From: a virus
Direction: 5' to 3' (one strand)
Virus record (IMG/VR): IMGVR_UViG_3300025168_000204
Location: 1 to 40,184 of that record
Length of the DNA: 40,184 nt
The notes under the pieces were generated by a model. That model was given only the letters and a program-made list of their open reading frames with translations, was not told the origin of the DNA and did not search any database. Positions 3,972 through 38,137 of this stretch are shown one piece after another. Positions within the stretch are counted from its first letter, which is position 1; each line of letters begins with the position of its first letter. Position numbers and translations under genes: made by a program.

Positions 3972-6896
3972 ATGGCAGAAAGAATTGTTAGCCCGGGTGT
4001 TTTTACACAGGAAAACGACCTTTCATTTTTACCAGCTGGTATAGGCGAAATTGGTGCTGTAATTATAGGTAGAACAGAAAGAGGACCGGCTTTTCAACCT
4101 ACCGTAATACGTTCTATGAACGATTTTGAATTACAGTTTGGAAGTGCAACCCAAGGAACTTATGTTCCATTTACAGTTAAAGAATATATTAGAAGCGCAG
4201 GGGCTGTTACGATAGTAAGAGTTCTTGGATTAGATGGATATGAAAATACTAAACAAGTATTTGTATATGCTTCTGGTTCTACAACATTTGCTTCAAACTC
4301 AGCTGCAACTGCAAATACTGATAAACACTTATTAGCTGTTTTACACGCTACAGCAGACGATCCAGACCAAGAATGTTCGGCAATTTCATTTGGTGAAACT
4401 GCTGGTGGACAATTTGCAATAAAAACTGTATTATTAGATTCAGGATCTTTAGCATTTCCTGGTGACTTAGCATCCTCTGGACCAAGTGTATATTTCCAAT
4501 TAACTTCTTCTAATGATTTAAGATATAGATTTATTGGTTTAGATACTGTAAACTTAAATGCAGTAACTAATGATATAAATACTTCTGCTGGTTCAACATC
4601 AACAGTATATTTCTTATCTAGTTCTGCAGGAAATAATGAAGACTCTTTATTATCTTTTGTGACTCAACTACAAGGTGTACAATCTAATTTGGGAATAACT
4701 GCAACTTTAGGTGCATCTCAATCAGTATCACCTTTCCACTTTAATTTACAATTATCAGCATCAGCAATTGGATTAGCTGGTAATACAATAACATTAGCTA
4801 CATCATCCCAAGGTGGCACAACAGCTGCTCAAACATTTGCAGGTGGTGCAGAAAATACTGGAAGTGGAGACTTAAGTAATTCATTAACTGGTAACGGTGT
4901 TGCAACATTTACATGGCACACTGCAGTAGCTTCTACTTGGTCATTTGATAAAGCAAACGCAAATTATTTTGAAAATCAATTACCAATGGAGCCAGGAGCA
5001 TATATTCCTGGTGTTGAAACTGGTGTTGAAACATACATAAGATCTTTTTACATACACTCACTATTTAATTCACAATCATATGGTGCTTCGGCAGATAATG
5101 TTGGTGGTGGATATGGATTTACAAAGGCTTCAGCATCTACACATGCTGTAAGCTATAACGCAGTTGCAAGTTCTGCTGGTACTGGAACAAATAGTTCTAC
5201 ATCTGGTAAATCTTATGTTGCTGCATGCACTCCATGGGTAACATCTCAAACTGTTGGTGCAGGTACAAACGATCCTTTATTTAAGTTCCATACATTATCT
5301 CACGGTAATGGGTCCAATAAAATGGCAAAAATAAGTATTGCTGCAATTAAATCTGCTGGATCAATTAGTGGACAAGATTATGGAAGCTTTACAGTACTTA
5401 TTAGAAAATTTGACGATACAGATTCAAAGGTAGTTACGTTAGAAACATATGCTAATTGTAATTTAGATCCAAATTCTCCAAACTACATAGCTAGAAGAAT
5501 TGGTGATAAATATAAATACTACCAAGACATCGGTACAGATAGTAAATTAGTAGTTGCTGGTGACTATGATAATATGTCTAAATATGTAAGAGTTGAAGTA
5601 GATGAAAGAGTAAGAAATGCAATATACTCCCCACAAATAATTCCATTCGCACACGAAGCATATTTATCGCCATACCAAGCTAATTTATATGGAGCTTATC
5701 CTCCTGCAGCATTAGTAACGTCTAGAAGTTTAATGACTGATACTAAAACATATTATGGATTTAACTTTAATGAAACAATTCTTAATAATGGAATGAAATA
5801 TTATCTTGCTCCATTAAGTGATACTGCAAACATAGGATACAATGCAGCATTTAAGTTAGAAAACTGTGTTAACTCTGGTTCAACAGTAACTACAGGTTCA
5901 GCATTACACGCTAAAAGATTTACTCTTGCATTCCAAGGAGGATTTGATGGAGTTAATCCTGCAATGCCTGTTAACCTAGGTAAAGACTTAGCACCAGGAA
6001 ACAGTTTTGGATTTAACTTTAGTTCAACTGCTGGTAGTGGATATAAAGCATTTAAAAAAGCATTAGATACTGTATCTAATCCTGATGAAATAGATATTAA
6101 CATGATTGTTATGCCAGGTATTCTTTCTAAGAATGCTTCAAATATAATTACAAAAGGTATCGAGGTTTGTGAAGACAGAGGTGATGCATTCTTTGTATTT
6201 GATGGTGTTAATTCTCTTGAAGGAGACTCAATCACTGCAGCAGTTGCTCAAGCTGATTTATATGATACAAACTACGGTGCACAATATTACCCATGGGTAA
6301 AAATACTTGATGCAACTGTAAATAAATTTTTATGGGTTCCACCATCCGTAGTAGTACCTGGTGTAATCGCCTTTAATGATAAGGTTGCATTCCCTTGGTT
6401 TGCTCCTGCAGGTCTTAATAGAGGAAGTTTAGCTCAAGTATCTGACGTATATACAAGATTAACTCATGGTGAAAGAGATGATTTATATGAAGGTAAAGTT
6501 AATCCTATTGCAGTATTCCCTTCAGTTGGAGTATGTATTTGGGGCCAAAAAACCTTACAAACAAAATCTTCAGCACTTGATAGAATCAATGTTCGTAGAT
6601 TATTGATAAAACTTAAGAAATTTATTGCTTCATCTACAAAATATCTTGTATTTGAACAAAACACAACAGCAACTAGAAATAGATTCTTAAATATTGTTAA
6701 CCCTTATTTAGAAACAGTACAACAGCAACAAGGTTTATATGCCTTTAAAGTTGTAATGGATGAAACAAATAATACTCCAGATGTAGTTGATAGAAACCAA
6801 ATGAAAGGTGAAATATTCTTACAGCCTGCAAAAGCTGCTGAATTCATCATTGTAGACTTCAACATAATGAGAACTGGTGCATCATTTGAAGAATAG
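3972..6896 (+). CDS. gp18: Contractile tail sheath protein, T4 gp18-like
   Basis: 974 residues. The N-terminus MAERIVSPGVFTQENDLSF is the classic start of contractile sheath proteins (SPGVxxxExD), followed by IIGRTERGPAFQPTVI. The C-terminal domain, from about residue 860, has INVRRLLIKLKKFIASST and ends in a block rich in IxLQPAKAAEFIIVDF, both typical of the conserved sheath core that packs on the tube. The protein is about 300 residues longer than T4 gp18 (659); the extra mass is a Ser/Thr/Ala/Gly-rich region at about residues 95-430, probably a surface-exposed insertion. AGAGGAG precedes the ATG. The tube gene follows, as in all contractile tails. Confidence 0.95.
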   Translation: MAERIVSPGVFTQENDLSFLPAGIGEIGAVIIGRTERGPAFQPTVIRSMNDFELQFGSATQGTYVPFTVKEYIRSAGAVTIVRVLGLDGYENTKQVFVYASGSTTFASNSAATANTDKHLLAVLHATADDPDQECSAISFGETAGGQFAIKTVLLDSGSLAFPGDLASSGPSVYFQLTSSNDLRYRFIGLDTVNLNAVTNDINTSAGSTSTVYFLSSSAGNNEDSLLSFVTQLQGVQSNLGITATLGASQSVSPFHFNLQLSASAIGLAGNTITLATSSQGGTTAAQTFAGGAENTGSGDLSNSLTGNGVATFTWHTAVASTWSFDKANANYFENQLPMEPGAYIPGVETGVETYIRSFYIHSLFNSQSYGASADNVGGGYGFTKASASTHAVSYNAVASSAGTGTNSSTSGKSYVAACTPWVTSQTVGAGTNDPLFKFHTLSHGNGSNKMAKISIAAIKSAGSISGQDYGSFTVLIRKFDDTDSKVVTLETYANCNLDPNSPNYIARRIGDKYKYYQDIGTDSKLVVAGDYDNMSKYVRVEVDERVRNAIYSPQIIPFAHEAYLSPYQANLYGAYPPAALVTSRSLMTDTKTYYGFNFNETILNNGMKYYLAPLSDTANIGYNAAFKLENCVNSGSTVTTGSALHAKRFTLAFQGGFDGVNPAMPVNLGKDLAPGNSFGFNFSSTAGSGYKAFKKALDTVSNPDEIDINMIVMPGILSKNASNIITKGIEVCEDRGDAFFVFDGVNSLEGDSITAAVAQADLYDTNYGAQYYPWVKILDATVNKFLWVPPSVVVPGVIAFNDKVAFPWFAPAGLNRGSLAQVSDVYTRLTHGERDDLYEGKVNPIAVFPSVGVCIWGQKTLQTKSSALDRINVRRLLIKLKKFIASSTKYLVFEQNTTATRNRFLNIVNPYLETVQQQQGLYAFKVVMDETNNTPDVVDRNQMKGEIFLQPAKAAEFIIVDFNIMRTGASFEE

Positions 6897-8649: not shown

Positions 8650-8664
8650 GATATTTATATATGA
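8650..8664 (+). promoter_or_regulatory. Late-type promoter element upstream of the tape-measure genes
   Basis: GATATTTATATATGA. The ATG at 8661 is part of this element, so the longer reading of the next gene from 8661 would start inside its own promoter. The true start is the ATG at 8688. Confidence 0.6.
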
Positions 8665-15880: not shown

Positions 15881-18800
15881 GTGTCTTTATTAGGAAACGA
15901 TATGGCCCCTGGCGTAAGAAAAGAATTATGCCGACGAGCAAAGATTATACCCGATGGTTATGGTCCATGGTCACATGCGAGAATTCCTTGGATTAGAGTA
16001 TCTCCTTGTGTACACGATAATCAGCAATCTTCTCCTGAAAGTTTAAGAAAAAAGCATATATTATTTGGTGGATCACTACAAGGTTTAGAAAGTACATATA
16101 ATATAAATACAAGAAATCGATTAGGACCACAAAGAGACACAGATACTGGAGGAAGTCGTAGAAATACCCCAAAAGCTGGCGTAAAATCTGTTTCTATAGA
16201 AGAAAAAGGTACTTTAGGTGGAATAAAAAAGGCTATAGTCAATTTTACTGTTTGGTCAGATAAAGACCTTATTAAATATGAACGACATTTAATGACACTT
16301 GGAAAACATGTGTTAGTAGAATGGGGTTGGAACGTTGATTCACATGGATCAGTTGTTAGAACAAACTTAGGTAAGTCACAAACATCCGTAAGTCTAACAG
16401 ATTCTGAACTATCATGTACCATACGTGGTAAACAATCAACAGAACACTATTGTTATGATGCAATACGTGGAATGGTTTCTAATTTTAATTGGAGTATAAA
16501 TGAATTTGGTGGATTTGATTGTAAGGTAGACTTAATTTCAAAAGGAACAACATTTTTATCTACACCAATAGAAACTGCAACAATGCATAGTGGGTGTGAT
16601 GAAGACCCTGAAACGGCAGATACAGCAGGAGATGAAGGAAAAGTACATAGGCCAAATATAGAACAACCAATGGCCTTTTTAAGACAAACCCTAGCAGATA
16701 CATGGGATAGTGCAGAACCTCACAAAAATAAAAATGCAGCTGGTAATGGATACATAGGAATGGCCGCTTTATTTGATAAAGAAATAGGTTTTATGGATTG
16801 GCTCGGTTCATTTTTCTCATCAGAACCAACGAATGCAGAATTAGAATTTTATATTACTTGGGATTATTTTGAAGAATATATAATAAATAGAAAGTTAGCT
16901 CCGGCATATGCATTAGGTTCTTCAGCAGGAAAAAAAGATACGGCCCAATCAGAGCCAGGAGTAGATAAGTGTGGTAATAAAAAAACAGTCGACAATCCTC
17001 AATCATGGACATCAATATATAATAAGAATTCAGCAAATATAGATAAACACCCTAGAAAAAGTGATATTCCATATGCACTTGATAGTAGGGGTAGTGTTTT
17101 AAGAAACTCAACATTTTTAATGTCAGCTGATCCAACAAAATGTATGCTTCCTGGCCAAGAACACTGGAAATTACACAAAATAAGACAAACAGGAATAGGA
17201 AATATTATGGCCTGGCTTGGTGGTGTTGCTGACTATGCAAAAACATATGTTGTTGAATTAGTAAAGAGTATATCTGTTTCATTAAAGGACGGGGTAACTG
17301 TAGACTATGGTAATGCAAAGAAAAAAGCAACTGCGGCCCAAAAAGATACACAAAAACAACTACAAGAAGACTTAGCAGACGATAACGTATCTAAAACAAC
17401 AGATAAACTTATGAAAAACTTTAAGCGATTTGACCCTAAAGCACCAGGTACAAATGGTCCAGGCTCATCAGGTGAAGGTTTGATTAGTAATATTATGTTA
17501 AATTTAGCATTTATAGAAGAGGTCGCAAATGAGGCTAAAACTTTAGATGAATTTCTGGATCAACTACTACAAGGAATTCAAGATGCTTGTGGTGGCCACT
17601 GGGACCTAGTAATTTGTCCTGATCCAGATAATCCTCAAATTGTACGGGTAATAGACCAAAATATGAAAACACCTAGTGATAAAATAAATGGTTTTCATTT
17701 TGATGGTATAGGTAGAAAATCTATATGTAGAGATATATCTATAGAAACAGATATAGATTCAAAAATGGCAGCTGTAGTAATGTACGGTAGTAATAAACAT
17801 CAAAATTCAGATGTCACAAAAAGCCCACAACCAATGGGTGGAAAAGGTTCTTCTGAATACAGTACATGGGGTGCTGGAATACAAGATTTAGTCCTAGCCG
17901 GAATAGGTCTTAGAGATTCTAAAGGTCAAGAACCAGAAGTAGATTGTTGTAATCAAGCGACTGGACATAATGGAAATGCAACTGATTCTGCATGGAGTGG
18001 CTATTTTAAAAGTGCAGAAGAATTAGCTAATAAGGTAACCGCAGACGCAAGTGAAGGTATGGTAACTGCCATGAGAAAACTTTTAAATACTGCTAATCCC
18101 GACCAAGCACTACCAACAAAGGATGGTGTTGCTGTTGCAGCATTTCATAATGAAGATCACACAATAACAATACCACTTAAGGTTGGGTTGACTATAGACG
18201 GAATATCTGGAATAAAGTGGGGAAATATGTTTTCATTTACAAACTCTACCCCTATACCAACTAGGTATAAAAACTTTTCATTTCAAATAACCAAAGTAGA
18301 ACATGAAATAAGTGATGATGGTTGGAAAACAACTCTTGGTAGTGTAATGCGCCCATTAAAATGTAAAACATATACATCTTGTGGTAGCAATCAGGGTAAA
18401 TTACCAACAGATATAGTTCCTACAACAGCTGATGTAGTTGACTATGAAATAATAACTGTTAAAGATATAGATGTAGATGATGACCAAAACACAGAAGAAA
18501 CACAAGACAGGGATTCAGTCACTGCAGTAAAAATGGATACTATCCCTCCTGGAGAATTAGATACAGATTCAGATATGGAATTGGCAAAAGCAAAATGCCC
18601 TTGTCAAGATGGTACCCATCATGAAGATTGTTGTAATTCTGCATCTGAAGGAGAGGAAGGTACCATACCAGTAATAACAAAAGAAGAAGTAGAAAAAACA
18701 GACCCTGATAAAAAAGGTTGTCAATGTGCAGACGGTGAGTTTAGAGAAGATTGTTGCGAACAAAACCCAAATGACGGTGATGGAGAAAAAGAAGGTGGTG

Positions 18801-19846
18801 ATGGTGAATGTAAGGACGATGTACCGATTGAAGAACCTGGATATACAGAAAATATAGAAGAAGAAAAAAATCCACCAGAAGACGTTGTTGTTGAAGACAA
18901 AGTAGAAGAGGAAGACTGTGATGATTGGGGCCCACTTGGAGAAACACTTGAATCAGGTACTATAACATATTGGCCAAGGCCAGAAATAAAATTTGAGTGG
19001 TACTATGAATTTAGAAGACATCAAAAACATTGTTTCTTTACTGACTTTTACCTATGGAGTGGAATAGATTCTCAAACAGGTAAACCTGCATTTACTCAAA
19101 TGTACCCACCATCAAGTATACCTACAAAAAACTTGTCTGGTACTATGAATTTATTTACTGGTGCAATGCTTAATAGGCGTGCAACTGTAAAAGATGTTTC
19201 ACAAATAACTGGTAAAAAGAAAAAAGAGCTAAAGGCTAAAAAATCTTATCAACAAAATAACAGATTTGAATATGGCAGATCTTCAGGAATTTCAGAAAAT
19301 CAAGATGTAGATCTTAAACCAGGATCCAATGATTCTCCTGGATTGTGGGTAGATACTCACATGCAATTCTTTAGAGAAGACCAACCATATGCTGCATGGC
19401 AAGGACCAGGTGGTATGGATGTTTGGAATAAATGGAAAGACGGTAAAGGAGGAACAAATGTAGTTCTTGGGCAAAAGAACCAAGGTGGAAGTGTAAAAGC
19501 TATGATGTCTGGTTGGATAAAACATGCTGTTTTACCTATGATGACACAAACTTGTAGAGATATAACAAAGAAGATGATAAAGGGAGCAGGTAGAAGTTCA
19601 GGTGGTAAACTATATTACAGGCCAAGTGAAATACAATCATTAATGCAAGATGCAAAAACTGGTAAAGTACCTTATGGTTGGAACCAAGAATATTTTTCAG
19701 CAGTTAAAGAAGAAGACTTAAACGACTACAATGATATACAATTTGTTCAAGGCTACCAAAATGCTGGAGTAGAAAATGTTAGAAACGAATTTAAAGATAA
19801 ACCAGGCCGACTGTTTACTTCAAACGGAATAAAAGCTACAGGATAA
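15881..19846 (+). CDS. Giant baseplate-hub-like structural protein with two SEC-C-type motifs
   Basis: 1321 residues, GTG start with AAAGGAG 6 bases upstream. Around residues 98-145 it has TPKAGVKSVSIEEKGTLGG, KKAIVNFTVWSDKDLIKYE and KHVLVEWGWN, a pattern I know from large T4-like and marine-phage baseplate proteins. Residues about 855-1015 are very acidic and carry two cysteine clusters of the form C-x-C-x8-C-C: C906/C908/C917/C918 and C947/C949/C958/C959, matching the spacing of the SEC-C zinc motif. The C-terminal 300 residues are basic and aromatic. It follows the LysM gene and a late-type element, so a tail baseplate role is likely. The exact T4 counterpart is uncertain. Confidence 0.6.
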   Translation: MSLLGNDMAPGVRKELCRRAKIIPDGYGPWSHARIPWIRVSPCVHDNQQSSPESLRKKHILFGGSLQGLESTYNINTRNRLGPQRDTDTGGSRRNTPKAGVKSVSIEEKGTLGGIKKAIVNFTVWSDKDLIKYERHLMTLGKHVLVEWGWNVDSHGSVVRTNLGKSQTSVSLTDSELSCTIRGKQSTEHYCYDAIRGMVSNFNWSINEFGGFDCKVDLISKGTTFLSTPIETATMHSGCDEDPETADTAGDEGKVHRPNIEQPMAFLRQTLADTWDSAEPHKNKNAAGNGYIGMAALFDKEIGFMDWLGSFFSSEPTNAELEFYITWDYFEEYIINRKLAPAYALGSSAGKKDTAQSEPGVDKCGNKKTVDNPQSWTSIYNKNSANIDKHPRKSDIPYALDSRGSVLRNSTFLMSADPTKCMLPGQEHWKLHKIRQTGIGNIMAWLGGVADYAKTYVVELVKSISVSLKDGVTVDYGNAKKKATAAQKDTQKQLQEDLADDNVSKTTDKLMKNFKRFDPKAPGTNGPGSSGEGLISNIMLNLAFIEEVANEAKTLDEFLDQLLQGIQDACGGHWDLVICPDPDNPQIVRVIDQNMKTPSDKINGFHFDGIGRKSICRDISIETDIDSKMAAVVMYGSNKHQNSDVTKSPQPMGGKGSSEYSTWGAGIQDLVLAGIGLRDSKGQEPEVDCCNQATGHNGNATDSAWSGYFKSAEELANKVTADASEGMVTAMRKLLNTANPDQALPTKDGVAVAAFHNEDHTITIPLKVGLTIDGISGIKWGNMFSFTNSTPIPTRYKNFSFQITKVEHEISDDGWKTTLGSVMRPLKCKTYTSCGSNQGKLPTDIVPTTADVVDYEIITVKDIDVDDDQNTEETQDRDSVTAVKMDTIPPGELDTDSDMELAKAKCPCQDGTHHEDCCNSASEGEEGTIPVITKEEVEKTDPDKKGCQCADGEFREDCCEQNPNDGDGEKEGGDGECKDDVPIEEPGYTENIEEEKNPPEDVVVEDKVEEEDCDDWGPLGETLESGTITYWPRPEIKFEWYYEFRRHQKHCFFTDFYLWSGIDSQTGKPAFTQMYPPSSIPTKNLSGTMNLFTGAMLNRRATVKDVSQITGKKKKELKAKKSYQQNNRFEYGRSSGISENQDVDLKPGSNDSPGLWVDTHMQFFREDQPYAAWQGPGGMDVWNKWKDGKGGTNVVLGQKNQGGSVKAMMSGWIKHAVLPMMTQTCRDITKKMIKGAGRSSGGKLYYRPSEIQSLMQDAKTGKVPYGWNQEYFSAVKEEDLNDYNDIQFVQGYQNAGVENVRNEFKDKPGRLFTSNGIKATG

Positions 19847-33161: not shown

Positions 33162-33177
33162 GATATTTATATATATG
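33162..33177 (+). promoter_or_regulatory. Late-type promoter element abutting the large surface-protein gene
   Basis: GATATTTATATATATG runs directly into the annotated ATG at 33175, leaving no room for a ribosome-binding site. Either the mRNA is leaderless or translation begins at a downstream codon. Confidence 0.6.
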
Positions 33178-36100
33178 TGTATAAGTGACATTTCAGCATC
33201 TTTAAGTACCAACTTTGGAGATCTTACGACAGTACAACTTTCCCAAAGTGTAATGAATAGCCTCCATAACTGGCCATGGAGACCAGTTGGCGCTGGAGGC
33301 AATGCTAGTTGTAGTATTTTTTATGTATCTGAAAGTGTACAATCAAAGGATAGAAATAATGATTGTGTTGATTTATTATATCTTTTTTTAGGTAGTGGAA
33401 GTTCTGCAAATAACGGCCCAACAAAAAAGATACACACAGATGATGGATTTGATTTTATTTGTGATGACGACCACCAAATTCTACAATGGTATTCTGGTAA
33501 TACTGCTCCTGGTATAGGTAATGCATATGTTAATGCTTATGATGTTTTTCCTGGAACAAAACTAGTTTCTTGGATGAATGACGTATACCAATATGTAACA
33601 GTTACGTCCTTATCTTTTCAAGAAGAGCAAGCCTCTGTAGCGGTAAACTGGTTAACAACTTTAACGAATAGTTATCAATTAGAAAATGGAATAGTTGTTA
33701 GAGGTTTTACAGGCGATGTTTGTAGTTGTGCACCAAGTGCAAGTATATTTGAAATTCCTTGTAATAGTACTATGTCTTTTTGTGTTTCAAATTCATTTCA
33801 AATGAATCTTTCTGGATCAGAATCGTTGCCAAACACTATAAAAAGTTGGACAGTATCAGATGTCAACCCAGCTGAAGGATCTGTTCAACCATTAATAAGT
33901 TTTGCAAGTGAATCAGCCTCGGCTTTAGATGGAAATCTTAATTTATTTCTTGACCAGGAATATGGATGTTGTACTTGTTCTATTAGGCTAGATTTAACCC
34001 ATATGCATGACTCAGCATCCGCATTTAATGGAACAGAAACAATATCTGGTCAACAACTTTTACCTAGATCTCAACTATCAAAAGTACTCTTTGCTAGACA
34101 AGACATTGCAGTTCCATTTACCCCTCCAGCTGGTTATCCAGGTGGTTATTCTGGAGTAAATCAATTTTGGATGGCATTGGCGTTTTCAGGATCTGGAGCA
34201 TCGAGTGTACCAAATAGTCCAGAAATATTTAACGCAAATTTAGGTAATGCTGAAACTAGAATAATTGCTCCTACTGGATCCCATGTATCTGTATCGATTG
34301 ATAATCTAGTTGAACATATAAATAATAGTTCATCCCATGCAGATTATACACCTTGGCTTACTGATGTAAGTGCTAGTAGACATGGTGCATCTGAACTTGT
34401 ATTACATAGGACAAAAATGGGTAATTGCGGAAACATGGCCGTTACAGGTGGTGTAGGTTGGTCTGCATTCTATATAAACTACAAATATTTTTCAACTCTG
34501 GGTGGAATAGCAAATACTTCTTCTGAAGCAGGCACTGGAAACTTAAGTAGTGGTAATGGCTTAATGCTAGGAGCCAATGGAAACCAAACATCAGTTGGTA
34601 ATATAAGTTTTGTAAGTGGAACACTTGAAGGCTCTTTTTCTGCATCTCTAGAGTTTACAAGATCAGGATGTTTTCCTAGTAATTTACCACAAGAATTTAA
34701 TGTTTGTTATACTGAAACACTGCTATTGGGATCAGATTTAGAAGCTTCTAGTTCATGTTGTTTTTTATTACAATTAAATAAACAACCATTTGCAAATTCA
34801 TCTTCTTCATATTGCCAACCAACTTTTACACCAGTAGTATGTTTAGATGAGGTGTTTGGTCCATGTAATTATGATACTTTAGAGTTTAATGCTAGTGATT
34901 TAGGGGTATTTGACTTATCAACATTTGCAGATAATAAACCTAGGTGCCAGTCGTTTACGGCAGATCAATCAACAATGGCAAATGGAAGTGTTATAATTAG
35001 TATGACTGCAAGTGCTGCAAATTCTGATTGTTTAAATGACGCTAGTGGTCAACCAAGTATGAGTCAAGGCCACAACCCTGAATCAGTATTAACCCCTGGT
35101 TGTTGTCCTGCATTTAGTCAATCTGCAATAATATATTTTAACCCAGGCCTTAATGCAGGAATTACTAATGTACAATGTTATCCAACAATGTCATTAGCTG
35201 CTAGTTCTATATTTGGAACAAGCCCAACCCTAGGAGCATACACTTGGAGTATTGCTGGAGGAAATGGTGCTCCAGCCCCTCACGCAATACCAGGTTTTAA
35301 TGGAAATGTTGCACCTGACGAAATATATATAGAAGGGGCAAATCTTTTACGTTTTAACACAGCCACTTCTAATTCATTTGCAACAGAAGTATACCTAAAT
35401 CATCCTACAGCCTCTGGGTTATATACAGCCAGTGTTTCAATAATGAATGGGCCTTGTGAATATAGTGCATCTGTATTTGTAAAAATGGTTTCAGCATCGG
35501 CAAATGCTGGCCCAGATATAAATTATTGTGTAGAACCAGGACATGATGCATCTTTAAGAATGGATGCTGAAGGGGTAGGTATTTGGACAGTTGTTTCTCC
35601 ACTACCACCTGCACCACAACCTTCAATTGGAGACTTATCTTCTCCAATTACTAAAATACAACAAGATATGTGCTCAACATACGTATATGAATGGACTATT
35701 AGTAGTGGTAGTATGCACTTTATAAATGAAGATACATATAGTGTAGTGTGTAATGCTTCAGATCAAGTAACGGTAAGTTTTAACAAATCTTTAATTAGCG
35801 GATCAATATTAGGAATACATACTGCTAGTGGATTTGGTACATCTCACCCTGCAATTACTCACACCCGTACTGACGGTACCAAGGTTTATAGTAATAATAT
35901 ATTTATGCAAAATTTAGATGGTAATACACCATTAACATTTAAAGGAATGATAGACCCAACTGCAACAGAGGCTACGTGGTCTGTTTACATGAGTGGTTCT
36001 CCATATGAATTTGCTAATTCTTTACATGCTATTGGAACAGATGACGCTCTTCAAGGTATAATGGGAGAATTTACTCCTGCTGGTACAATGTTTTGGCCAT

Positions 36101-37188
36101 ATTTATATTCTGGAAACACGTTAACAAGTCAGTCTGTAGGAGGAGCTGCCATGGGTCAAGGCCTTGCAGCACAAAATAGAATAAGTATAGCACAAGGACT
36201 TAATCCTCCAAGTATAGGTTCTCATAGGTTTAATTTTTCATCGTCACATTCTAATACTTGGGGAACAGTAATACCATATTTATTAGAACAAACTAGTCCA
36301 TGTATTTGTCCAGATAGTAGGCCTCGTATCCATGGATTTCTTACGTTTAGACCTCCAGCAAATGACGGTGCACTACAATTTGTATTACCTACACTATCAA
36401 ATCCAGGTTTATTTAATAATAACGCTGGTGCATATGCCCCACCATCTGCAGTTCCAGCACGATTTGTTTACGAACCTGTATTAAGTATGTCAGTACCTAA
36501 GTATGATTCTGCAGTAATGATATCATTTCACTCAGGATCAAATTGGCAAGGCCCACGGTCTCAATCAGCTGTTATGTCAAAAAATGGACAAAACTTACAT
36601 GCTCCATATTTAACATTTTCATATGATCCTGGTACAAATCCACCTACTCCACCTATAGTACCATTAGAAAGAAAAACTTCTATTACTCTAGGTGTATTAC
36701 CAGAAGACGTTGATAGTTCTGCTCCAAACCCTAATGCTTCCGCTCCATTCTGGCCTGCACATAACGGCCCAGCAGTTAAAGTAGGAACGGGTATTACTTC
36801 TGGTAGTGGTGAAACATTATCTTGGAATTGGAAAGCAAGAGAAATAGCAGTATATAGGAATGGTATTATTTTACCACTTGCACATGATGGAACTACAATT
36901 CCACCTACTATTGTAACTGGATCTTTTACAGATACAATGACTTCTGAATCACACGTAGAGGCTCCAGCTTTTTTCCCTCCCCATAGAGATCCAACTAATG
37001 CAGTTGCTAATTGGAACTCAAGTGCAATAGGTATAGCTGTTCATAGACCATATGGTAATATTTCAGGATATAGTGCAATAAAAAGTTGTTCAATAATGTT
37101 TGAGGTAACGATGTCTAGAATTGACCCTGTATCACAAACACCATGGAAAACTTACTATGCTAGTCAATCTGCAATGTTTGTCGCCTAA
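33175..37188 (+). CDS. Large Cys-containing surface/fibre protein with Hint-like and PKD-like segments
   Basis: 1337 residues, Ser/Thr/Asn/Gly-rich, beta-prone, no signal peptide. Residues about 88-180 resemble a Hint (intein-type) fold: DFICDDDHQIL with H100, AYDVFPGTKLVSW, VTVTSLSF and a closing SYQLENGIVVRG. Around residue 775 a PKD/Ig-like domain begins (SANAGPDINYC, then GVGIWTVVSP and YVYEWTISSG), a style frequent in Bacteroidota adhesins. CysCys pairs occur at several places. The C-terminal 200 residues are compact. The late-type element makes a virion protein likely: receptor-binding fibre, head fibre or adhesin. The start is uncertain because the ATG abuts the promoter; the next Met is at residue 28. 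Confidence 0.7.
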   Translation: MCISDISASLSTNFGDLTTVQLSQSVMNSLHNWPWRPVGAGGNASCSIFYVSESVQSKDRNNDCVDLLYLFLGSGSSANNGPTKKIHTDDGFDFICDDDHQILQWYSGNTAPGIGNAYVNAYDVFPGTKLVSWMNDVYQYVTVTSLSFQEEQASVAVNWLTTLTNSYQLENGIVVRGFTGDVCSCAPSASIFEIPCNSTMSFCVSNSFQMNLSGSESLPNTIKSWTVSDVNPAEGSVQPLISFASESASALDGNLNLFLDQEYGCCTCSIRLDLTHMHDSASAFNGTETISGQQLLPRSQLSKVLFARQDIAVPFTPPAGYPGGYSGVNQFWMALAFSGSGASSVPNSPEIFNANLGNAETRIIAPTGSHVSVSIDNLVEHINNSSSHADYTPWLTDVSASRHGASELVLHRTKMGNCGNMAVTGGVGWSAFYINYKYFSTLGGIANTSSEAGTGNLSSGNGLMLGANGNQTSVGNISFVSGTLEGSFSASLEFTRSGCFPSNLPQEFNVCYTETLLLGSDLEASSSCCFLLQLNKQPFANSSSSYCQPTFTPVVCLDEVFGPCNYDTLEFNASDLGVFDLSTFADNKPRCQSFTADQSTMANGSVIISMTASAANSDCLNDASGQPSMSQGHNPESVLTPGCCPAFSQSAIIYFNPGLNAGITNVQCYPTMSLAASSIFGTSPTLGAYTWSIAGGNGAPAPHAIPGFNGNVAPDEIYIEGANLLRFNTATSNSFATEVYLNHPTASGLYTASVSIMNGPCEYSASVFVKMVSASANAGPDINYCVEPGHDASLRMDAEGVGIWTVVSPLPPAPQPSIGDLSSPITKIQQDMCSTYVYEWTISSGSMHFINEDTYSVVCNASDQVTVSFNKSLISGSILGIHTASGFGTSHPAITHTRTDGTKVYSNNIFMQNLDGNTPLTFKGMIDPTATEATWSVYMSGSPYEFANSLHAIGTDDALQGIMGEFTPAGTMFWPYLYSGNTLTSQSVGGAAMGQGLAAQNRISIAQGLNPPSIGSHRFNFSSSHSNTWGTVIPYLLEQTSPCICPDSRPRIHGFLTFRPPANDGALQFVLPTLSNPGLFNNNAGAYAPPSAVPARFVYEPVLSMSVPKYDSAVMISFHSGSNWQGPRSQSAVMSKNGQNLHAPYLTFSYDPGTNPPTPPIVPLERKTSITLGVLPEDVDSSAPNPNASAPFWPAHNGPAVKVGTGITSGSGETLSWNWKAREIAVYRNGIILPLAHDGTTIPPTIVTGSFTDTMTSESHVEAPAFFPPHRDPTNAVANWNSSAIGIAVHRPYGNISGYSAIKSCSIMFEVTMSRIDPVSQTPWKTYYASQSAMFVA

Positions 37189-37189
37189 T

Positions 37190-38137
37190 ATGAAATATAT
37201 ACTTGGAAACAATAATGCATCTTGGTTTTTGTCATACTTACTTGATACTAAAATAATATTGCACAAAACGTTAGATAACTTAGACTATAATGCTGGACCT
37301 GAAATAATACAACCTTCACTACTAAATATTGTAAAGGGCGAATTTGAAAATGTAACAATATCAGAATTAGAAAGGTTTTACGATGACAGAGGAAAACAAA
37401 CATCAGTTCAACCTAAAAACTTTGGCAAATTATACTCATTATATACCAGGGGAAAAGTAATAACTGAAGAATCATATAAGAATTCATATTCAAAATATGA
37501 AAAATATGTTAGTATTAATGGTTTTGGTCCTGAAGAAAGTTATAAACTATTTTTATTAAAAATTAAAGAAAGTGTAAATAAAAACACTATTGATTCATCA
37601 ATAAAATCTATAGAAACATCAGGAAACATACACCTGGAATCAGAAAGCCTACCATTTGAACGTATAATATCAACTATGAATATTATTGATTTAGCAGAAT
37701 TAGACCTAAGTGGAAATATTAGAGATTCTATTATAAACAATAATTCTCTAGAAGGATTTAATTTACCACACAATGATAGATTTATCTATATATGTTCACT
37801 AGATAACAGTGAGGATAAAACAATATCAAAAATATATAAACAGGTATTGGTAACTGGAAAACCATATTTTAAAAAAACATATATCCTTGATAAAATAATT
37901 TTTGAATCAATGAGAAATATATATCAAAAAGATATAGACGGAAATAAAATACTACAATATATTGAATCAACACAAATATCAGATAATCTTTCAATAAATA
38001 AAGTACTTGGAATAGACCTAGTTGGTAAATTTTCAGAATGGAATGAAAATACTACACTAGAAACTATATATCATAGAGCAAAACAGTTACAAGAATTTTA
38101 CAATAATAATGAAAATAATCATAAAAAAGTTTTATAG
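37190..38137 (+). CDS. Degenerate FAD/NAD-binding oxidoreductase-like protein
   Basis: 315 residues from ATG 37190. A longer reading from 37121 would overlap the previous gene by 68 bases and is rejected. The N-terminus KYILGNNNASWFLSYLL has the strand-turn-helix form of a Rossmann dinucleotide fold, but the GxGxxG glycines are largely lost. LYTRGKV (about residues 85-91) and ISTMNIIDLAEL (about residues 161-172) resemble blocks of phage flavoprotein-like (UDP-galactopyranose-mutase/amine-oxidase style) proteins that I recall near thymidylate synthase genes. A role in nucleotide or base chemistry is a guess. Its last codons (AAA GTT TTA TAG) form part of the next promoter. Confidence 0.45.
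   Translation: MKYILGNNNASWFLSYLLDTKIILHKTLDNLDYNAGPEIIQPSLLNIVKGEFENVTISELERFYDDRGKQTSVQPKNFGKLYSLYTRGKVITEESYKNSYSKYEKYVSINGFGPEESYKLFLLKIKESVNKNTIDSSIKSIETSGNIHLESESLPFERIISTMNIIDLAELDLSGNIRDSIINNNSLEGFNLPHNDRFIYICSLDNSEDKTISKIYKQVLVTGKPYFKKTYILDKIIFESMRNIYQKDIDGNKILQYIESTQISDNLSINKVLGIDLVGKFSEWNENTTLETIYHRAKQLQEFYNNNENNHKKVL

Follow-up and report, generated by a model that had tools for sequence, protein, structure and literature searches.

A degenerate Hint fold at the probable base of a large surface-type protein in uncultured marine phages

Hint domains are known for cutting themselves, and the presence of such a domain at the extreme N-terminus of a large phage protein raises the question of what it could still cut and, if it does not cut, what it may be kept for. 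The case addressed here is carried by IMGVR_UViG_3300025168_000204, an IMG/VR virus record of 40,184 bases that was analysed at its full length (the window) and that belongs to a marine phage whose gene content (sheath, baseplate hub and head-tail adaptor) indicates a contractile tail. Its large open reading frame (ORF) is intact, as originally predicted, and encodes 1337 amino acids from an ATG at 33175 to a stop codon at 37186–37188. The original prediction had also noticed an intein-like segment in this protein, which could be either active, with self-cleavage or cross-linking, or inactive, the fold being reused as structure. The second branch is the one supported: the Hint fold is present and, throughout the family, the residues of cleavage and splicing are missing except the cysteine of intein position 1 (Cys1). 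We regard the domain as real, catalytically dead and reused as the foot of a surface-type phage protein, which is moderately surprising; the way in which it is used is what we infer below.

Twelve further IMG/VR contigs encode relatives, giving 13 homologues with that of the window (alignment A5). Scans of IMG/VR provided L001, L002 and L004–L008, a degenerate motif taken from the end of the Hint domain led to L104, L106, L107 and L108, and a second motif to L110. These correspond to about ten distinct lineages: an identical protein is encoded by L006 and L007, and members of the pairs L104/L107 and L106/L108 are close to each other. All 13 proteins begin with MCI[SA]D. Hint paralogues elsewhere in these records were rejected: the family profile detects one Hint domain per record in 8/8 records and, in a further run, in 5/5, the domain being reported in two pieces in the records of L106 and L108, which carry an insert. 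L104, L106, L107 and L108 carry a loop insertion of about 70–85 amino acids after block A. In L008, about 150 amino acids are inserted just before the last Hint strands (approximately L008:6433–6960), at a position, placed by alignment only, near the usual site of intein endonucleases. No similarity was found between this insert and the window protein, and the idea that it forms one module with window residues 320–445 was rejected (hhalign probability 0.1).

As far as profile comparison and a structure model indicate, the N-terminal domain belongs to the Hint superfamily by fold. The two lines start from a common homologue alignment and use different information. Comparison by hhalign of 12 homologues with seven inteins, of which one is Npu DnaE and six come from phage records, gives a probability of 74.9, a score of 36.2 and a P value of 2.6e-5, and the probability reaches 76.4 with all 13 homologues. 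None of 200 column shuffles attains the score of 36.2 (mean 12.2, maximum 18.4), and the reversed family profile scores 13.9. In the comparison with 13 homologues, each of ten 180-column slices taken from elsewhere in the protein has a probability of 0.1, and that of single inteins compared with the other six is 96–99. The local match spans residues 80–149. In the global alignment (probability 45), Cys2 falls opposite Cys1 of the inteins, and NGIVVRG opposite their C-terminus. The resemblance first seen at residues 88–180 exceeds chance, and its extent should be about residues 2–178. The closing motif that had been pointed out is indeed present (Y167-Q-L-E-N171-G-I-V-V175). The letters of the other one, dHxxL, are also there (D99-H100-Q-I-L103), but its histidine is not conserved, with His in 3/13 homologues and Gln in 10/13.

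The structure model leads to the same fold. An earlier AlphaFold2 model, built from three near-identical sequences, was unusable (predicted local distance difference test, pLDDT, 32). The model from a 12-row alignment has a mean pLDDT of 40, and residues 83–149, at about 58–77 by blocks, are its only usable part. With this model, Foldseek returns inteins or Hedgehog proteins at all ranks from 1 to 27 and Hint structures in 44 of the 50 PDB matches listed (best E value 3.8e-3). The 50 matches listed by VIA-align are Hint structures without exception, and the best of them aligns 76 residues at 2.2 A, with a Z of 9.5. The 50 matches listed from BFVD include terminases, ribonucleotide reductases and polymerases, with two named intein splicing regions and one Hint. 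The ordinary beta sandwich devoid of a Hint horseshoe, named beforehand as the refuting outcome, did not appear, in a model usable at residues 83–149 only.

Whether this domain can act was addressed with a site table of the 13 homologues, in which the roles of the intein residues follow the portions available of PMC4031507 and PMC7664689. The equivalent of Cys1, as in class 1 inteins, is Cys in 13/13 (Cys2 of the protein). The other class 1 residues are lost: in block B, Thr B:7 is found in 7/13 and His B:10 in 3/13 (window, L001 and L004), both together in 0/13; the equivalent of the penultimate His is Arg or Lys in 13/13; the C-terminal Asn is replaced by Gly in 13/13, and the +1 residue is Phe in 12 and Gln in one. 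Furthermore, the start Met directly precedes Cys1 in 13/13, so that there is no N-extein, and no in-frame ATG was found in the window between the upstream stop and the ATG at 33175. N-terminal chemistry would have Met alone as its substrate. The domain also lacks what a Hedgehog Hog domain has, namely a preceding domain and the Thr/His pair, and the residues by which BIL domains cleave themselves appear to be missing in the family. Judged from its residues, the domain cannot function as an intein and seems catalytically dead, Cys1 alone being kept of the sets of residues needed. Splicing and C-cleavage are very unlikely, because the Thr/His pair, the C-terminal Asn and the N-extein are lost. 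An active, self-cleaving Hint domain was rejected on this basis, and the other branch of the original prediction, with cleavage or cross-linking, is not supported.

The domain is nonetheless under purifying selection. The ratio of nonsynonymous to synonymous substitution rates (dN/dS) is lower in the Hint domain than in the rest of the protein for window/L001 (0.11 vs 0.25), L004/L005 (0.14 vs 0.22), L104/L107 (0.13 vs 0.28) and window/L005 (0.26 vs 0.50). Among the eight full-length proteins, mean pairwise identity is 55.5% over residues 1–179 (26% invariant), 63.8% over residues 180–207 and 24–42%, by region, outside residues 1–207. Likewise, L110 aligns with residues 1–207 and 502–855, and no BLAST match covers residues 208–500. 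The whole protein is poor in charged residues (11.0%, against 14.5–33.7% in nine other proteins of the window) and contains 31 Cys.

The DNA around the start codon is also conserved. Over its 2005 intergenic bases, the window carries nine copies of a motif, TATTTATA (2000 mononucleotide shuffles: mean 0.62, maximum 5), while TATAAATA, the T4 late element, is found 0 times in the same bases. Copies of TATTTATA, which is often present as TATTTATATATA, lie on the coding strand at 882, 3906, 6924, 7519, 8652, 15858, 22021, 24882 and 33164. They precede the starts, as picked among the ORFs in this analysis, of structural genes, including that of the tail sheath (3972–6896), and of other genes. It is thus a late-promoter-like motif and may be the late promoter of this phage group. 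The sequence TATTTATATAT-ATG-TGT-ATA is base-identical in 13/13 homologues, with two extra bases before the ATG in L006/L007; codons 1–3 (33175–33183) show no change in the 13, and synonymous variation begins at codon 4 (11 sequences, residues 4–25). A leaderless or nearly leaderless mRNA is suggested for the large ORF because the motif ends three bases upstream of the ATG. A constraint on DNA or on translation start may explain the invariant Cys2, which is no proof of chemistry because codons 1–3 are kept at the DNA level beside an invariant motif. Elsewhere in the window (8652–8663), TATTTATAT stands directly before the ATG of an 86-amino-acid ORF at 8661, which hints at another leaderless start.

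What, then, would a dead Hint domain be kept for? We consider it fairly probable that the fold now serves a late surface or appendage protein as its structural base, which probably anchors it to the virion. The first ~178 residues would be a Hint fold without autocatalysis, kept for its shape. As the two ends of a Hint domain lie close together, the fold could make up a compact base in which the N-terminal Cys is buried or lies close by. The long body would exit from this base through the conserved Cys-rich joint, possibly a metal site or a set of disulfides. The base would dock the protein to a constant partner in the virion, residues 45–66 being a candidate partner-binding face, and the variable body would extend outward, probably to host cells. 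Phage appendage proteins usually combine a constant base with a changing body, which makes docking the most likely role of the inactive domain. The signs that the protein belongs to a virion fibre or appendage are indirect, namely the promoter-like motif common with structural genes, the low charge and the conservation gradient. The features concerned are collected in Table 1.

Table 1. Location of the large ORF and of the features discussed in the window
Feature	Position	Strand	Basis or remark
Large ORF for a putative late surface/appendage protein, N-terminus with Hint fold	33175..37188	+	1337 amino acids; homologues in 12 IMG/VR contigs
ATATTTATATATATG, late-promoter-like motif; TATTTATA at 33164–33171 ends 3 bases before the start codon, the motif merging with it	33163..33177	+	TATTTATATAT-ATG in 13/13 homologues
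Degenerate Hint domain, residues 2–178	33178..33708	+	hhalign probability 75–76 with controls; Foldseek and VIA-align matches to inteins/Hedgehog
Block A-like segment, residues 2–25 (Cys2 = intein Cys1, T12, G15)	33178..33249	+	Global hhalign alignment
Strongly conserved segment between blocks A and B, residues 45–66; SCSIFYVSESVQSKDRNNDCVD in the window	33307..33372	+	Alignment A5
Block B-like segment, residues 84–105, KKIHTDDGFDFICDDDHQILQW; Thr B:7 = Asp97 and His B:10 = His100 in the window	33424..33489	+	Site table; best-modelled part
Residues 121–134, AYDVFPGTKLVSWM; equivalent of the Hint A-x-x-L-x-x-G-D turn	33535..33576	+	Within the hhalign-aligned stretch 80–149
Block F/G-like segment, residues 157–178, VNWLTTLTNSYQLENGIVVRGF; Arg-Gly-Phe in place of the C-terminal His-Asn and the +1 nucleophile	33643..33708	+	Site table
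Cys-rich joint, residues 181–203 (C183-x-C185...C196...C203), best conserved stretch	33715..33783	+	C183, C185 and C196 in 13/13
Variable body, residues 208–500	33796..34674	+	28.8% mean pairwise identity, 1.7% invariant, 78% occupancy, 8 full-length homologues
PKD/Ig-like segment as first proposed, residues 775–868 (AGPD...C...GIWT)	35497..35778	+	Motif only
C-terminal region, residues 1061–1337, moderately conserved, no known family	36355..37185	+	35.0% mean pairwise identity

Several observations weigh against a Hint base that docks to the virion, and some of them would suit other explanations. In the AlphaFold2 model, residues 1–82 and 150–200 have a pLDDT below 50, so that the N- and C-terminal Hint strands are placed by sequence alone. 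Of 14 control genomes, 7 are matched by the Pfam model Intein_splicing (PF14890) and 3 by Hint_2 (PF13403); in the same searches, both models match 0/3 records at E<=10. Pfam, NCBIfam and PHROGs give no meaningful match to the Hint domain, the whole protein or the homologues. L106 and L108 differ by very few changes, which give a dN/dS of 0.31 in the Hint domain and of about 1 elsewhere in the protein. The homologues were gathered by similarity of their N-termini, which inflates the conservation gradient, and the gene is not part of the tail cluster but follows nrdJ. If the Hint match were a false positive and the N-terminus an unrelated beta domain, the low confidence of the model and the absence of HMM (hidden Markov model) matches would be expected, and a Z below 8 can come from common arrangements; this is improbable, however, with two methods with clean controls giving the same fold and with the equivalents of blocks A, B and F/G following one another in intein order. 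Slimmer still is the chance that an intein or Hint domain of recent origin persists here as a decaying remnant without any role, which would account for the loss of catalytic residues and for the loop insertions of L104, L106, L107, L108 and L008, but not for the high conservation, a dN/dS of 0.11–0.14 in three pairs, or an identical pattern of loss in 13/13.

A domain still chemically active in a reduced way, in which Met1 would be removed and Cys1, placed in the former active site, would form a thioester or a disulfide or be ligated to a virion protein, finds some support in the invariance of Cys2 (13/13) and in inteins that survive the loss of the block-B His and of the penultimate His by compensatory mutations, as described in the accessible part of PMC7664689. 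We give it little credit, as Cys2 may serve the DNA or the translation start (codons 1–3 are identical beside the invariant motif), the block-B Thr and His occur together in 0/13, and an Asn, Gln or Asp is found at the C-terminal position in 0/13. No better odds can be given to a related arrangement, in which an intein-type Hint domain, fixed at the N-terminus and no longer splicing, would act as an anchoring device, its Cys1 cleft being bonded, covalently or with the help of a metal, to a constant partner in the virion. More weight, though clearly a minor share, goes to the Hint fold having another workplace: the protein would belong not to the virion but be released or exposed on the infected host cell, and the domain would bind a host or phage partner. 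The absence of any structural annotation fits this, as does the gene being an accessory insert after nrdJ (directly downstream of it at one locus, L018, among the 67 compared), whereas no signal peptide is evident by eye at MCISDISAS and the promoter-like motif is common to the tail sheath and other structural genes. A structural base of a late surface or appendage protein stays the reading preferred here.

Searches with the protein outside this family returned little. Pfam and PHROGs models give the large ORF no name, and PDB sequence searches (queries A1, P0001 and A5) return nothing at E<=10. With tblastn against 50,697 phage records, the window protein has zero matches at E<=1, and the L006 and L008 proteins have nothing except a fragment of L008 at 31% (E 0.5). 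Scans of genome contigs with query A2 reveal no relative. The seven-intein HMM, run on 4128 open frames of 111 sources, finds a single match besides its own members, in L109 (E 0.002).

The large ORF has genes for ribonucleotide reductase and thymidylate synthase around it, and it is an accessory gene. Among 67 of the 80 nrdJ loci, which were compared directly and several of which stop too early to tell, it lies immediately downstream in one (L018, on the same contig as L008). Among the remaining 13, L005 and L009 (on the same contig as L001) have it, and the other 11 were covered by the family profile only; this profile, run over all nrdJ loci, reveals no additional member. One of the nearest isolates is Microcystis phage Mel-JY01, at 69% for the ribonucleotide reductase and 44% for the sheath; its reductase is followed by an annotated gene of 651 bases, so that a large ORF is absent from this place. 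The gene that follows the large ORF in the window (37190–38137) encodes 315 amino acids without a credible Pfam match; its N-terminus, MKYILGNN, which resembles a dinucleotide-binding start, has similar counterparts after nrdJ in several relatives devoid of the large ORF. Another large protein of the window, of 1321 amino acids with 27 Cys, is encoded in the late gene cluster (15881–19846) and has no credible Pfam or PHROGs family.

A PKD-like domain near residue 775 had also been proposed, with capture of a host adhesin and a Bacteroidota host as its corollaries. The letters are present (A778-G-P-D...C785...G802-I-W-T, residues 778–805), and may resemble Bacteroidota repeats, but no profile or search backs PKD: Pfam matches 0/6 homologous segments at E<=10, searches of PDB, plasmids and phages with the segment yield only unrelated proteins at E>=0.3, the A6 profile finds a C-type lectin as its best PDB match (E 0.31), and a scan of genome contigs finds no relative. 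Adhesin capture and the Bacteroidota host had this motif as their sole basis and are not supported by these searches; the nearest isolates by sheath include Flavobacterium phages (49% over 45%) but also the Microcystis phage. The contig of L110 (IMGVR_UViG_2811995091_000107) has a number style unlike that of metagenome entries and may be an isolate or single-cell genome, which might name a host.

A family that keeps the Hint fold and Cys1 under purifying selection after losing the catalytic set offers a case of this fold serving as plain structure, which bears on the domestication of inteins. For uncultured marine phages, it also provides an anchoring-domain candidate that can be tested, and it warns that an invariant Cys1 need not imply catalysis. 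Among the papers listed by literature searches, none concerns a Hint domain that is part of a virion or fibre protein of a phage; the portions available of PMC5259590, PMC8790156, PMC3556154 and PMC5526547 place inteins or Hint domains in a terminase, a helicase or a ribonucleotide reductase, or mention none.

Among known systems, the class 1 mini-inteins (Npu DnaE, Pho RadA, gp41-1) resemble the phage domain in fold, in the order of blocks A, B and F/G and in the N-terminal Cys. However, the phage domain does not lie within a host protein, has a longer stretch from A to B, and lacks the N-extein, the Thr/His pair, the His-Asn end and the +1 nucleophile. BIL domains share the Hint fold (2lwy is among the matches listed) and the absence of a +1 nucleophile, but they still cleave, according to the part of PMC7664689 consulted, whereas the phage domain appears devoid of cleavage residues. 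The Hog domain of Hedgehog, whose structures 6tyy and 1at0 match the model, also has the Hint fold in common; it is C-terminal and performs an N-S acyl shift on the domain that precedes it, while nothing lies ahead of Cys1 in the phage protein. Finally, the inteins of phage terminases and ribonucleotide reductases share both the phage setting and the fold, but they interrupt enzymes and splice out, whereas the phage domain is the fixed N-terminus of a surface-type protein.

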